Assembly: GCF_000426305.1 (NCBI RefSeq)
Contig: NZ_KE384518.1
Location: forward strand, 124,001 to 188,000
Origin: Anaerovorax odorimutans DSM 5092
GTDB lineage: Bacteria; Bacillota; Clostridia; Peptostreptococcales; Anaerovoracaceae
Direction of reading: 5' to 3'
Length of the DNA: 64,000 nt
The notes beneath the pieces were generated by a model, which made no database searches, was not told the origin of the DNA, and was given only the letters and a program-made list of their open reading frames with translations. Below are positions 58,997 to 64,000 of the stretch, piece by piece (within the stretch, counting starts at the first letter, position 1; each line of letters opens with the position of its first letter). Position numbers and translations under genes: made by a program.

Positions 58997-59344
58997 ATGT
59001 ACCTCCAAATATTTCTGCAATTTTTATTATGACTAAATCTAACCTTTAATTCACACCAATTTTATATTACCGTTTGACTTATGACAAGTCAATGAATATC
59101 CTTTATTTTTTTACTAAACTAATTTTACGGCTTTATTATTTATATACAATTTATCTAAGTTGATAAATTCAATTTTATCAATTCATAAAAAGACATATTT
59201 CGACAAAATTTGGAAAGTGTATATTTACTTTATTAAAACGTAGCCATATAATTACTTTTGGATGAAATGATTGTAAATTAAATCAAATTAAATCAGACCA
59301 ATTGAAATTAAATAAAACAACACTAGGGGAAATAGGGGGAACTT
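58997..59344. other. Divergent intergenic region with inverted and direct repeats
   Basis: This 348-base region separates the DUF4236 gene (minus) from the first recombinase (plus). At 59152-59181 three copies of a GATAAA/TTTATC half-site form two overlapping inverted repeats: AATTTATC-N6-GATAAATT and TTGATAAA-TTCAAT-TTTATCAA (59160-59181). At about 59076-59094, TTGACTT and AAGTCAA form another inverted repeat. At about 59276-59320 AAATTAAATC occurs twice in tandem and once more as AAATTAAATA. These may be recombination or regulatory sites, or chance in AT-rich DNA. Confidence 0.5.
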
Positions 59345-60388
59345 ATGAACGATATAGAGATTCAGTCAGAGAAATTTTTAAAGTATTGTAAAAATCAAAG
59401 AAGGCTTTCAAGTGCCACTGTTAGAGCATATCGCTTTGACATTTCACTTTTCGTCAGATTCTTAAACACACTTGAACCACCTATAGAAGAAAATATAAAA
59501 GTTACAAAAGATATCTTAGGTGAATATTTAGACTATTTGAACGAAAATTTTGCAGTTAAAACTGTTAGAAGAAGAATTGCAAGCATACGATCACTGTTTA
59601 ACTATTTAGAATACGAAGAAATCGTTCCAAATAATCCATTTGAAAAATTTCATATGAATATAAAAGAGCCTTTTCGTATTCCAAAAACAATGTGCCTTGA
59701 AGAAATCAGCAAAATATTATCTACAGCTTACAGTGACTCTCCTACCTTAATGCCTGTAATGGATAAAAAGTATGCGTCTCTTCCTATGGGTGCCAGACCT
59801 AGGATCAGAATAACGTCAAATGAATTTATATGGGCAAGAGATATTGCAGTCTTGGAGCTGCTCTTTGCAGGCGGTTTACGAGTAAGCGAACTATGTGACT
59901 TAGAATTAAGTGATTTTAGTGCCGACCATTTAATGATACGAATTAAAGGCAAAGGAAATAAGGAAAGAACAATATATTTAGAAAATGTTGAAGTAGTCAA
60001 TGCTTTAAACAGATATTTACTTTTTAGAGATGTAGCCGAGGTAGACTGTTCTCATATCTTTATAAGTAAATTCGGGAAACCTTTATCTACACAGGCAGTA
60101 AGAAATCTAGTGGAAAAATATACAAAGGAAGCAGGAATAACAAAGAAAATAACACCTCATGTATTCAGACATTCTTTTGCATCTTTATTACTTGAAGAAG
60201 GGGTTGATATAAAATATATTCAGGATTTTTTAGGACATAGCTCCATATCCACTACACAAATTTATTTACATACAACAAGTAATCAAAAAAGAAAAATCAT
60301 GTCTACCAAACACCCAAGACAAAAACTGATTTTATCTGATATTGCTCCAATGGCAAATGCAGAAAGTCATGTCTTAAAACATGATTAG
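59345..60388 (+). CDS. Xer-type tyrosine recombinase, copy 1
   Basis: A 347-residue site-specific recombinase. The SAM-like core-binding domain (about residues 5-115) has 'SATVRAYRFDISLFVRFL' and the catalytic domain (about 120-325) holds all key residues: Arg179 in 'GGLRVSELCDLEL', Lys in 'KGKGNKERTIYL', His272 and Arg275 in 'HVFRHSFASLLLEEG', His298 in 'LGHSSISTTQIYLHTT' and the nucleophile Tyr307. About 40 residues ('YSDSPTLMPVMDKKYASLPM...') are inserted ahead of the first catalytic arginine compared with XerC/XerD. A strong GGGGGA site lies upstream. A near-identical-architecture paralogue follows. Confidence 0.93.
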   Translation: MNDIEIQSEKFLKYCKNQRRLSSATVRAYRFDISLFVRFLNTLEPPIEENIKVTKDILGEYLDYLNENFAVKTVRRRIASIRSLFNYLEYEEIVPNNPFEKFHMNIKEPFRIPKTMCLEEISKILSTAYSDSPTLMPVMDKKYASLPMGARPRIRITSNEFIWARDIAVLELLFAGGLRVSELCDLELSDFSADHLMIRIKGKGNKERTIYLENVEVVNALNRYLLFRDVAEVDCSHIFISKFGKPLSTQAVRNLVEKYTKEAGITKKITPHVFRHSFASLLLEEGVDIKYIQDFLGHSSISTTQIYLHTTSNQKRKIMSTKHPRQKLILSDIAPMANAESHVLKHD

Positions 60389-60444
60389 GATAATATTAAT
60401 AAAATTTTGAAATATCCTCTGTCATTATATTAAAATTACTTTTA

Positions 60445-60472
60445 TGCGAGTTACGGTAACTCGCATTTTTTT
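60445..60472 (+). terminator. Terminator between the two recombinase genes
   Basis: TGCGAGTT and AACTCGCA pair over the loop ACGGT, followed by TTTTTTT, 55 bases after the first recombinase stop. The two recombinases therefore probably have separate transcripts. Confidence 0.88.
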
Positions 60473-60532
60473 ATTGCAATTTGTCAACAATACATATTAA
60501 GTAGGTTAATTCATATATAGGAGGATGATTTA

Positions 60533-61618
60533 ATGATTGATAATAAAACTATAATTAAACAATTTATTCAATACTGCCAAAACCAAAGAAGACTTTCAGC
60601 CAGTACTATCAAAGCATATAACTTTGACATTGCCTGCTTCATATCTTTTTTAAAAAAGAGCGAGTCTGAAAATTTCAATTTGACTGATGTAACTAAACCC
60701 ACATTGGAACATTATTTAGATGATATTAATCAAAGACTTGCAGTTAAAACAGTAAAGCGAAGATTTGCATGCCTGCGATCTCTTTATAATTATTTAGAAT
60801 ATGAGGAACTCATTGAAACTTCACCTTTTGACAAATTCCATTTTAATATGAGAGAACCATATAAGCTGAGAGAATCCATGACCTTAGAAGAAGTAAATCA
60901 AATTTTAGCTACTGCCTATAAACAAATGCCACCATCCATTCCTTTGGAAGTAATAGACGCACAAGATAATTATAATAAAACAAATGGCAAAATTACATTC
61001 AGAAATGATGTAAGTCTATCTTCTGAGGAATATATTTGGGTAAGGGATATCGCAATATTGGAATTGTTGTTTGTAGGTGGCGTTAGGGTCAGTGAACTTT
61101 GTGATTTAAAGCTAGAAGATTTCAAATCTGTTCATATGGCTTTGCATGTGCACGGAAAAGGCAATAAGGAAAGGCTTGTATATCTAGAGAATGATGAAGT
61201 AATCATCGCCCTCAATCGTTATTTATATTACAGAATGGCATCGGGAATAAACCTTCCCGGAATATTTATCACTAGGTTTGGCAAGAAGTTATCTTCACAA
61301 GCAGTTAGGAATCTTGTTACTAAATATTCTCATTTAGCAGGAATCAAAAAAAATATTACACCTCATGTTTTCAGACATACGTTTGCCACATTATTATTGG
61401 AGGAAGGTGTTGATATTAAGTACATTCAAGACTTTCTTGGTCATAGTTCCATATCCACTACGCAGATTTATCTGCATACTACTAATAGGAAAAAAAGGAA
61501 AATTATTTCAGAAATGCACCCTCGTCAAAAGCTTTCTTTATCTAAAATTTCTTCTATGGATAATGTCAAATTATCTTCAGAAGGGGACGATAATTTGAGT
61601 AAAATTACAAAAGAATGA
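60533..61618 (+). CDS. Xer-type tyrosine recombinase, copy 2
   Basis: A 361-residue paralogue of the preceding gene, with the same order: 'NQRRLSASTIKAYNFDIACF' in the N-terminal domain and the catalytic Arg ('GGVRVSELCDLKL'), Lys ('HGKGNKERLVYL'), His-x2-Arg ('HVFRHTFATLLLEEG'), His ('LGHSSISTTQIYLHTT') and Tyr. An insert of similar position but different sequence ('YKQMPPSIPLEVIDAQDNYN...') lies ahead of the first arginine. GGAGG is 8 bases upstream of ATG. Its stop is just 41 bases before the S-layer gene, so the two may share a transcript. The pair may act together as a heterodimer like XerC/XerD. Confidence 0.93.
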   Translation: MIDNKTIIKQFIQYCQNQRRLSASTIKAYNFDIACFISFLKKSESENFNLTDVTKPTLEHYLDDINQRLAVKTVKRRFACLRSLYNYLEYEELIETSPFDKFHFNMREPYKLRESMTLEEVNQILATAYKQMPPSIPLEVIDAQDNYNKTNGKITFRNDVSLSSEEYIWVRDIAILELLFVGGVRVSELCDLKLEDFKSVHMALHVHGKGNKERLVYLENDEVIIALNRYLYYRMASGINLPGIFITRFGKKLSSQAVRNLVTKYSHLAGIKKNITPHVFRHTFATLLLEEGVDIKYIQDFLGHSSISTTQIYLHTTNRKKRKIISEMHPRQKLSLSKISSMDNVKLSSEGDDNLSKITKE

Positions 61619-61659
61619 ACCCCTTCGAAGAGTATTACCTTAAAGGAGGAATTTAAAAA

Positions 61660-64000
61660 ATGAGAAAGATACTTTCATTTGTACTAGTATTATCACTAGT
61701 ATTAGGAAGCTTCTCAATGGCATTCGCTGCAGATTCCACTGCTTCAACTGCAGGATTAAGCGATATTGAAGGAATTGCCAATGAAGATGCTATTCAAGTA
61801 AATTATGATCTTGGGATTGTAACGGGTAACCCTGATGGAACTTACCTTCCTGAGAAAGCTGTAACAAGAGCAGAATTTGCTGCATTGATTACAAGAGCAT
61901 TAGCTATTCCTGACAGTGCACTTGCTGGATATAAGAACACAAAGTTTAAAGACACTGTTGGATATGGTTGGGCTGTACCTTACCTAGGTTTCTGTGAATC
62001 AAAGGGTATTATCCTTGGTGATGGTAACGGAAACGCAATGCCGGGAAGAACAATTAACACAAACGAAGCAATGACAATGGCTCTTAGAGCGATTGGTTAC
62101 ACTGCAAACTCAGCAGAGTTAGTAGGAACATGGCCTTCAAACTACGTTACAGTAGCACAGAACAACAGCATGTATGATGATGTTGCTAAGGTTACAAATG
62201 TAGACAAGGCAAATGCTGCACAGATTATCTACAATGCATTAACTGTACAAAAGGTATCTGTAAATTCTGATGGTGAAACAATTGCACTTTGGGATGACTC
62301 TGCAAAGACAGTTCCGGCTAATTTACTTAGCACTGGATTAAATTGTGACTCAGAGGAAGATAAAATCATAACAGGAGCTGACTATGACAGTGCTGTTATG
62401 AATATTACAAAGTATATGGGTGCTTATGGTACTGCATACACAAATGATGACGGTGATATCGTTGCATTTACTGTAGATTCTACTCCTCTTACAGGTTCAT
62501 TTGATGGAGATAAGTTTGAAGCTGATGGTGTAGAATACACTCTTGGAACAAACACATTTACTACACCTAAAGCTATCTCAAATACTGATGCTGTTGATAC
62601 AGCACTATTAACAAAAGCAGGAATCGAAGCTTTCGCAACTGCTTCTGCTGACGATGATGTAACAATCAACGTTGATCTTTCAGGAAAAACAATCAAAGAT
62701 ATCTATTCAGTTGTTGGTTGGACTGCAACTTCTGCAAATGTAGCTGACGATGCTGACGTTGAAGATATTGCTGATGATAATTCTTTATTAGGATATGACT
62801 TCGTAGAAGATGACAATAATGATATTGATACTGCTTCATTCACACTAGTTGGTGTTTCAAACTTAAACAAGATTAAAGAAGATAATGTAGTATATGTATA
62901 TACTGACGCTGATAATGATATCAGAAAGGTTGCAGTAGGTACAGAAATTGTTGAAGGTATTGTAGCAGAAGAAAATACAGGATCAGATGCTTACGTTATT
63001 ATTGATGGCAAGAAGTATGAACAAGCAGAATTTGTAGGCGGATCAGCTTGCGCTGCTGATGCTCTTCCATCACTTGATGACTCTACTAAGTTATCATTAG
63101 ATGCTTATGGCTATGTATATGATGTAGATTCTTCAAGCTCAACTCCTGATAAATTTGCTGTAACAAAAGTATTCGTAACTCCTGCAGGAGTAGACAATGC
63201 AAAAGCTAAGATCTACACTTCTGATGATGCTACAAAAACAGTAACATTTGAAGATTGGAATGCTGAAGACATTGACTTTACAAACAACGTATCTGCCCCA
63301 GCAATTACTGCCGGTGCTTTAATCGGATATGACGTAGATGCTGAAGGTATTGTTGATACTCTTGACCTTACTGCAGTACACCCTGCTTCAGCAGAGTTAC
63401 AAAGTTCAAAGGTATTAAAGATTGGTGCAGGATATCTTGATATCGCAAAAAATGTTGCAGTATTCACATACACAGGTGCGACAAATGCTGCTATTGATTT
63501 ATCAACTACTGAATTAGACGTAGTAAATATTTCTGATATCGATACAGGTGATGTATTCAGTAACGACTTCCAGTATATCTACAATAGTAGTGACAAAGAA
63601 GTAGTTGCAATCTTAGTAAATGACACTTACAATAATGGTGGATCTGATGACATCTTCGCAGTATTAAACAGTGCAACTAAGGTTAAAGACGGAAGTGACA
63701 CAGTTCAAAAACTTGTTGGTTTTGTAGCTGGCAAAGACTATACTAAAAATGCAGACAGCGACAGCGCACTTAGCACAGCAGACTTCAATGCAGTTCCTAC
63801 AATAGCTGCTCTATACAAGATTGAAGAAACAGGTTCAGGCGATGTTAAAACTGCAACATTAGTAGGTGCTCCAAATGGAGATGAAGCTTGCATGTTAGCA
63901 GGCGGAACAAATGGTCTACTTGTTACAGATGTAAATTCTGACAGAACTGTTGTAACTGTAACATCAGGTGGTGTTGAATCTAAATATACAGTAGAAGCTG
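61660..64000 (+). CDS. S-layer protein with N-terminal SLH domains (3' end outside window)
   Basis: The frame is open from ATG 61660 to the end of the window, giving 780 residues without a stop, so the gene is partial. Residues 1-24 are a signal peptide (cleavage after 'MAFA'). About three SLH motifs follow: 'QVNYDLGIVTGNPDGTYLP' with 'VTRAEFAALITRAL', then 'FKDTVGYGWAVPYLGFCESK' with 'INTNEAMTMALRAI', and a third near 'DKANAAQIIYNAL'. These bind secondary cell-wall polymer. The rest is acidic, Asp/Thr/Ala-rich, with almost no basic clusters, as in S-layer arrays. The codons used (GCA/ACA/AAG/TTC) differ from neighbouring genes, fitting very high expression. An AAAGGAGG site lies upstream. 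Confidence 0.92.
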   Translation, partial: MRKILSFVLVLSLVLGSFSMAFAADSTASTAGLSDIEGIANEDAIQVNYDLGIVTGNPDGTYLPEKAVTRAEFAALITRALAIPDSALAGYKNTKFKDTVGYGWAVPYLGFCESKGIILGDGNGNAMPGRTINTNEAMTMALRAIGYTANSAELVGTWPSNYVTVAQNNSMYDDVAKVTNVDKANAAQIIYNALTVQKVSVNSDGETIALWDDSAKTVPANLLSTGLNCDSEEDKIITGADYDSAVMNITKYMGAYGTAYTNDDGDIVAFTVDSTPLTGSFDGDKFEADGVEYTLGTNTFTTPKAISNTDAVDTALLTKAGIEAFATASADDDVTINVDLSGKTIKDIYSVVGWTATSANVADDADVEDIADDNSLLGYDFVEDDNNDIDTASFTLVGVSNLNKIKEDNVVYVYTDADNDIRKVAVGTEIVEGIVAEENTGSDAYVIIDGKKYEQAEFVGGSACAADALPSLDDSTKLSLDAYGYVYDVDSSSSTPDKFAVTKVFVTPAGVDNAKAKIYTSDDATKTVTFEDWNAEDIDFTNNVSAPAITAGALIGYDVDAEGIVDTLDLTAVHPASAELQSSKVLKIGAGYLDIAKNVAVFTYTGATNAAIDLSTTELDVVNISDIDTGDVFSNDFQYIYNSSDKEVVAILVNDTYNNGGSDDIFAVLNSATKVKDGSDTVQKLVGFVAGKDYTKNADSDSALSTADFNAVPTIAALYKIEETGSGDVKTATLVGAPNGDEACMLAGGTNGLLVTDVNSDRTVVTVTSGGVESKYTVEA

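Follow-up and report, generated by a model that had tools for sequence, protein, structure and literature searches.

In the vpma locus of Mycoplasma agalactiae and the vsp locus of M. bovis (Xer1 and Mbr), one active promoter serves a set of otherwise silent surface genes whose 5' untranslated and signal-peptide regions are conserved; recombination sites are proposed to lie in the former, a tyrosine recombinase is encoded near the locus, and Xer1 is essential for inversion (PMC2268961, in excerpt). Here we describe a locus of comparable anatomy in Anaerovorax odorimutans DSM 5092, of the family Anaerovoracaceae. It lies in a stretch of 64,000 nucleotides (hereafter, the window), in which two Xer-like tyrosine recombinase genes, rec1 and rec2, are followed by S1, an S-layer gene with SLH domains, whose leader contains a sequence element that recurs ahead of surface-protein genes of relatives. 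We think it probable that this is an S-layer switching locus, with one expression site and silent cassettes that are exchanged by site-specific inversion.

Among S-layer genes, the sap locus of the Gram-negative Campylobacter fetus combines a single promoter with several S-layer genes having conserved 5' ends, and is RecA-dependent. The slp segment of Lactobacillus acidophilus reportedly inverts, a finding said to be that of Boot et al. in 1996; its S-layer proteins belong to a different family from S1, and to our knowledge no dedicated recombinase pair flanks it. The cwpV gene of Clostridioides difficile is a single gene switched on and off by DNA inversion. The excerpted literature describes slpA and slpB as a pair of S-layer genes that share a 6-kb segment and of which the silent one has no promoter (PMC6015585), and CwpV as a clostridial wall protein with phase-variable expression (PMC2784873).

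As far as those excerpts go, the A. odorimutans locus shares with vpma and vsp the single promoter, the promoterless copies, the nearby recombinase and the common 5' untranslated sequence. It differs in that their products are lipoproteins and one recombinase gene is named per locus, whereas here there are SLH genes and a recombinase pair common to three genera, the site is also able to fold as a pseudoknot, and copies lie on several contigs of one genome. Inversion is Xer1-dependent there, whereas the system described here is known from assembled sequences alone. With slp it shares the two S-layer genes, one of them promoterless, although slp has two genes only and here both genes encode SLH domains; with sap, the single promoter and several S-layer genes; and with cwpV, a phase-variable clostridial wall protein, although cwpV is a one-gene switch and here the choice would be between genes. 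Judged by anatomy, vpma and vsp appear to be the closest working parallel and the slp segment the closest S-layer parallel. In the portions available to us of the open-access literature on S-layer switching by recombinases or inversion, on Anaerovoracaceae and on Sinanaerobacter, we found no description of such a system.

The rec1-rec2-S1 locus and its convergent partner

The window corresponds to G000:C3:124001-188000, where G000 is the A. odorimutans genome (3.26 Mb in 54 contigs); a retrieved locus reaching beyond the window end, L009, was used for the end of S1, for its paralogue S2, and for the genes behind S2 (Table 1). From the window, it had been proposed that the recombinases switch alternative S-layer genes located beyond position 64000, and that further SLH genes or inverted repeats should be sought there. 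Such a search reveals S2, convergent to S1 and preceded by an inverted copy of its leader, with three further SLH genes behind it (470, 219, and 811 amino acids [aa]). The S1 and S2 proteins are 81% identical across their first 229 residues, and the DNAs are 81% identical across 464 nucleotides (nt), with further blocks of similarity. The two leaders form an inverted repeat consisting of a 22-nt block around the ribosome-binding site (RBS), for which a genome search at up to three mismatches returned two occurrences, together with the element upstream of the block. The element starts within the 3' end of rec2 at S1, and downstream of a consensus promoter at S2; there is no consensus promoter at S1. 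As in the slp arrangement, the two S-layer genes are oppositely oriented, have a common 5' part, and one is promoterless.

We propose that the expression site would lie beside the SLH gene cluster, driven by a strong sigma-70-type promoter, and that other surface-protein genes would be stored promoterless, each opening with the same leader. Rec1 and Rec2 would recombine two inverted leader core sites (arms TCAAATTATCTTC and inverted right arm, spacer AGAAGGG) and the 6.5-kb segment between the cores would turn round, which would place S1 after the promoter and S2 after rec2. Once transcribed, the site could fold into a pseudoknot, and a stored gene, bringing its own leader, RBS and signal peptide, would be expression-ready. 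When the inversion is performed in silico at AGAAGGG (6484 bp), the promoter leads into S1, S2 comes to stand behind rec2, and rec2 stays open, encoding 356 rather than 361 aa with its last residues changed. That inversion occurs, that Rec1 and Rec2 carry it out with the spacer as the place of crossover, and that copies lacking a promoter are silent are inferences on our part.

The original prediction had also drawn attention to the recombinases themselves, and its description of them and of their placement is sustained. Both open reading frames (ORFs) are intact and stand head to tail ahead of S1, with 57% identity between their products (338 aligned positions). Both products match Phage_integrase (PF00589) plus SAM-like N-terminal domains, which places them in the tyrosine recombinase superfamily, and both keep the series Arg-Lys-His-Arg-His-Tyr, which we take to be the catalytic residues, in alignments to Escherichia coli XerD (1a0p). 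Relative to XerD, each has approximately 28 to 34 extra residues in the interval separating the aligned domains, ahead of the first catalytic Arg, and this stretch in Rec1 is unlike that in Rec2. The rec2 stop codon is 41 bases from the S1 ATG, with AAAGGAGG inside that gap. A terminator-like hairpin with a T-run separates the recombinases, and a terminator scan gave none between rec2 and S1; the scan returned four in the region against a shuffle mean of 4.0, and the call rests on the visible sequence.

Table 1. Features of the locus in window numbering (+, forward strand)
Feature	Position	Strand	Description
rec1	59345..60388	+	Xer-like tyrosine recombinase, 347 aa, intact ORF
Terminator-like hairpin	60444..60476	+	Hairpin 60444-60466 plus T-run, between rec1 and rec2
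rec2	60533..61618	+	Paralogous Xer-like tyrosine recombinase, 361 aa, intact ORF; last codons overlap element
Proposed recombination core	61566..61598	+	Left arm TCAAATTATCTTC, spacer AGAAGGG, right arm GACGATAATTTGA; 12/13 arm positions palindromic
Leader able to form H-type pseudoknot	61566..61626	+	Stem 1 TCAAATTATC/GATAATTTGA, stem 2 GAAGGGG/CCCCTTC, A-rich loop 3
RBS AAAGGAGG	61642..61649	+	Part of 22-nt block, twice in genome (S1 exact, S2 one mismatch)
S1	61660..64000 (on to 64170, outside window)	+	SLH-domain S-layer gene, 836 aa, promoterless copy
S2	64442-67987 (outside window)	minus	S-layer paralogue convergent to S1, 1181 aa
Inverted partner of core	68042-68082 (L009:10042-10082, outside window)	minus	Upstream of S2; 9/13, 8-bp spacer
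S2 promoter	68163-68134 (outside window)	minus	TTGACT-N18-TATAAT

The S2 promoter and the element are separated by a second leader hairpin (AUAGAA..UUCUAU; L009:10090-10125, minus strand), and similar sequences, TAGAATATGC..GCATTTCTA, can be seen by eye at promoter-bearing copies of relatives; this hairpin may protect the mRNA 5' end. Close to the recombinase locus, the window also encodes a nucleotidyltransferase and substrate-binding protein pair (PF18765 and PF08780; 57945-58635, minus strand), of the MntA-HepT-like kind.

The shared element, its promoters and its cassettes

Element and recombinase counts refer to 349 genomes of Anaerovoracaceae, each species represented by one assembly state with automatic ORF calls, and many relatives by fragmented assemblies. 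The sequence ATGTCAAATTATCTTCNGAAGGGG is present with up to three mismatches in 46 of the 349, with no control match. With up to two mismatches it occurs in 20 of 297 genomes of the order, the sole one from outside the family being G378, in which the sequence model finds two copies, both ahead of S-layer-like genes and only one of them with a promoter at up to one mismatch; there is no recombinase of the rec1/rec2 kind on its two element-bearing contigs. In the A. odorimutans genome, the leaders of S1 and S2 are the only strong forward matches to the model. Our working set has 67 copies in 45 genomes, derived from 68 matches by dropping three 3-mismatch matches whose context was not inspected (G132, and one each in G265 and G323) and adding by hand two degenerate 4-mismatch copies (S2, and G343 C3). 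Two G008 copies (C5:36 and C7:92) carry the same flank and represent one junction, so that G008 has six distinct copies rather than seven; the profile, promoter and recombinase tallies keep both.

Promoters were scored as TTGAC(A/T)-N15-18-TATAAT, one mismatch being allowed, in the 150 nt upstream of the element. This test is passed by 38 copies, 30 of them without mismatch, with starts at -73 to -85, compared with 102 of 7650 random 150-nt windows. Exactly one promoter-bearing copy is present in 12 of the 14 multi-copy genomes (A. odorimutans and 11 others), a count that is unchanged when one of the two G008 copies with a common flank is dropped (66 copies). Among single-copy genomes, 26 of 31 have a promoter; one of the five without, G350, lacks any sequence upstream of its copy.

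Within a genome, the flanks of different copies are unrelated to about position -4, and the sequences are nearly identical from -3 through the leader, RBS and signal peptide. Ungapped pair identity per 5-nt block is 0.28 to 0.43 between -60 and -6, and 0.93 to 1.00 at -3 to +9, in a pooled profile of 40 pairs of which 21 are from G008 and from which G323 is left out. Per-genome means, with G323 included, are 0.19 to 0.69 at -15 to -4; 1.00, 0.79, and 1.00 at -3 to -1; and 1.00 at 0 to +6. Identity falls to 0.75 to 0.84 at +35 to +49, in loop 3 of the leader (see below). G323 is an exception, in that its shared part begins further upstream. Contig ends were considered as proof of switching and rejected: a contig end falls within 350 bp downstream of 23 of the 67 copies (1.58 expected), and several of these ends lie approximately 127 or 141 nt past the boundary, which we read as one assembly word length and which is expected of any such repeat. 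The excess counts only as support for the position of the boundary.

The genes downstream of well-assembled copies encode S-layer-like or other secreted surface proteins, as read from their translations (the downstream frame listed for G006 is spurious, and its S-layer gene was identified separately). Nine of the ten fully assembled promoterless genes in multi-copy genomes are open (G000, three in G008, G013, G034, G094, G343, and G353). The five assembled paralogues of G008 illustrate the organization, with N-terminal regions of approximately 200 aa that are 87 to 100% alike, DNA approximately 86 to 90% identical over the first 700 nt, and bodies that are mostly 27 to 75% alike per 100 columns, bar one recent pair (90% identical DNA). 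Considered as the expressed gene in a different arrangement, G008 C5 is rejected: it is a 90%-identical paralogue. G094 and G353 have the same kinds of gene in opposite positions: the promoterless copy of G094 and the promoter-bearing copy of G353 are followed by a gene with copper-amine-oxidase N-terminal domains and, after it, two smaller genes, and an SLH gene occupies the promoter-bearing copy of G094 and the promoterless copy of G353. The SLH genes of 470 and 219 aa beside the A. odorimutans expression site both have relatives close to the G353 copy that bears the promoter, where two other genes intervene.

Three further loci, L126 (G194:C123), L127 (G024:C9), and L128 (G261:C29), have convergent or multiple S-layer genes with no recognizable element or recombinase nearby; the contig of L128 ends at the leader, and that of L127 breaks off within the N-terminal region of one S-layer gene.

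The candidate core and the leader RNA

The element contains 13-nt arms about a 7-nt spacer, with 9 to 12 of 13 arm positions matching in 64 of 65 copies; at least 9 match in 47 of 3250 shuffles, the score being the best of three spacers for copies and shuffles alike. Palindromic arms of this sort would suit a recombinase core. The same sequence is able to form a pseudoknot when transcribed. Across the nine inner pairs of stem 1 in 51 distinct copies, 396 of 459 cells are Watson-Crick, 59 are G.U, and 4 are unpaired; the outermost pair, outside this count, is unpaired in 24 of 52 rows. On a MAFFT alignment that includes the outer pair, 94.6% of cells are paired, compared with 18 to 61% when the strands are slid, and three pairs are changed on both sides (5 cells). 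The preference for G.U among stem 1 changes points to selection on the RNA.

For stem 2, a helix of at least seven pairs with the GGGG strand is found in 60 of 61 copies, compared with 111 of 3050 shuffles, although the search chose another pairing in G062, G264, and G265. Stem 2 varies little and therefore shows little covariation, and an eighth pair fails in 16 of 51 copies; the stem 2 counts are anchored on two motifs, and show that these are universal in the 51 long-enough distinct copies (none excluded) rather than independent covariation. Loop 3 is 57% A. Energy folding recovers stem 2 and not stem 1, by a method that does not predict pseudoknots, and Rfam 15 gives no match at the gathering threshold on L009.

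Two inverted repeats had been pointed out in the window. The one near 59160 lies upstream of rec1 here and is not found in the two relatives checked (L140 and L141), and we discard it as a recombination site. The one near 61623 does fall inside the conserved leader, where 61620-61626 is the 3' strand of a leader helix.

Recombinases in relatives and alternative explanations

A recombinase of this kind (E<=1e-40) is present in 28 of the 349 genomes, and its distribution follows that of the element: 11 of 14 multi-copy genomes, 7 of 31 single-copy genomes, and 10 of 304 element-free genomes have one (Fisher p 1.7e-11 for element versus none and 7e-4 for multi-copy versus single-copy; related taxa are not independent and the p-values overstate the association). 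In nine genomes (A. odorimutans and eight others) an element and a recombinase ORF are no more than 1.2 kb apart, as they are by coordinates in G263, a genome assigned by hand to the S-layer clade from a partial match and outside the tree. The rec2 gene overlaps the element in G000, G343, and G094, and in G094 the rec1-rec2 pair is flanked by two leader copies. In a recombinase tree of 40 rows, 22 rows make up one supported group (97/99). Within it, rec1 clusters (100/99) with rec1 of G343 (Sinanaerobacter), rec1 of G094, and the single recombinases of G091 and G092, and rec2 clusters (94/91) with rec2 of G343 and G094. Because G343 and G094 contribute a partner to each of the two clusters, the pair probably predates these genera. 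The nearest named relative by recombinase, among the matches listed, is Sinanaerobacter chloroacetimidivorans (66% identity; Anaerovoracaceae, Peptostreptococcales).

A recombinase pair lying next to unrelated genes in relatives would have spoken against a role at S-layer genes. Single clade members lie beside unrelated genes in G091 and G092, and the rec1-rec2-S1 order itself is kept in Sinanaerobacter. At these two loci (L066 in G091, L065 in G092), single recombinases stand beside genes that read as RND-efflux and TolC-like, with no element found there, and two two-component pairs, paralogous to each other, flank the recombinase in L065; these loci are possibly another switch. Three sister-clade recombinases are present in G170 (L162, L163, and L164), a genome in which no element was found.

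Several observations weigh against S-layer switching by rec1 and rec2. Three multi-copy genomes (G013, G264, and G323, two copies each) have no recombinase at E<=1e-40, ten genomes have a recombinase and no element was found in them, the sister-clade recombinases of G083 and G086 are far from the element on the same contig, and the clade members of G091 and G092 adjoin efflux and two-component genes (read from the sequence, with no family search). G002 and G062, both multi-copy, show no clear promoter ahead of any of their copies; some convergent S-layer pairs have no recognizable element (G194 and G024); and the promoterless S-layer gene of G262 is broken into several frames (L122:8493-10866, minus strand), through either decay of the cassette or assembly error. 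In A. odorimutans itself, the two copies differ within the element, the S2 core is degenerate (9 of 13 arm matches and an 8-bp spacer), and S1 may be read through from rec2, since no terminator stands between them. A palindrome alone is no proof of a recombination site, although site and RNA roles can be compatible, and conservation of the element may be purely an RNA matter, because it is kept in single-copy genomes without a rec1/rec2-type recombinase (for example, G084, G085, G171, and G172). As to the switching of S-layer genes beyond the window that the original prediction envisaged, the convergent S2, the inverted leader, the sole consensus promoter and the like arrangements in relatives speak for it, but no inversion was observed, each genome being represented by one assembled state.

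These considerations bear differently on the alternatives. If switching proceeded by RecA-mediated homologous recombination or gene conversion through the common leader and N-terminal coding region, in the manner of C. fetus sap, with the recombinases being bystanders or acting at another site, the long blocks shared by S1 and S2 and by the G008 paralogues would provide the substrate, and the three multi-copy genomes lacking a recombinase would be accounted for. We nonetheless regard this as unlikely: the left boundary of identity is the same across genera and lies between unrelated flanks (not in G323), which suits a fixed site better, recombinase presence follows copy number, and rec2 overlaps the element in three genomes. 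Still less probable, in our judgment, is that there is no switching at all, the element being only an RNA structure of the 5' untranslated region (controlling mRNA stability or translation) that was duplicated with the paralogues, and S1 a spare gene read through from rec2. The near-universal pairing (455 of 459 cells in stem 1, and the stem 2 helix in all but one of 61 copies), the element-bearing single-copy genomes without recombinase, and the absence of a terminator seen after rec2 all agree with it, but it leaves unexplained why there is one promoter per genome, why promoterless copies follow unrelated flanks, why recombinases are linked to the element, and why nine of ten fully assembled promoterless genes are open.

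That Rec1 and Rec2 are chromosome-dimer or mobile-element recombinases placed beside S-layer genes by chance would fit their Xer-like character and the position of clade relatives beside other genes. However, their scores are far under the NCBIfam XerD and XerC cut-offs of 330 and 335 (239 and 237 for Rec1; 218 and 221 for Rec2), whereas another recombinase of the same genome (302 aa) scores 326 on XerD, just under the cut-off, and passes the PRK00283 subfamily; moreover, the recombinase-element association recurs across genera. We consider such chance placement highly improbable. Site-specific inversion between one expression site and promoterless cassettes thus remains our preferred account. 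It is conceivable, and we suggest it tentatively, that a single sequence of approximately 35 nt does two jobs, as the DNA core for a dedicated two-enzyme system, Rec1 and Rec2, and as the first stem of an RNA pseudoknot in the leader of the coat gene being expressed, in a family-wide system of S-layer antigenic variation with cassettes for at least two unrelated kinds of coat, SLH and copper-amine-oxidase-domain proteins.

S-layer proteins can be phage receptors, as described for SlpA of C. difficile (PMC12680318, in excerpt). If the proposal is correct, a switch with one promoter and many cassettes would explain the diversity of coats in a family of Clostridia, a 24-nt signature would be available for spotting cassettes in metagenomes, and the leader would be a case of a recombination site and a structured RNA leader in one sequence.

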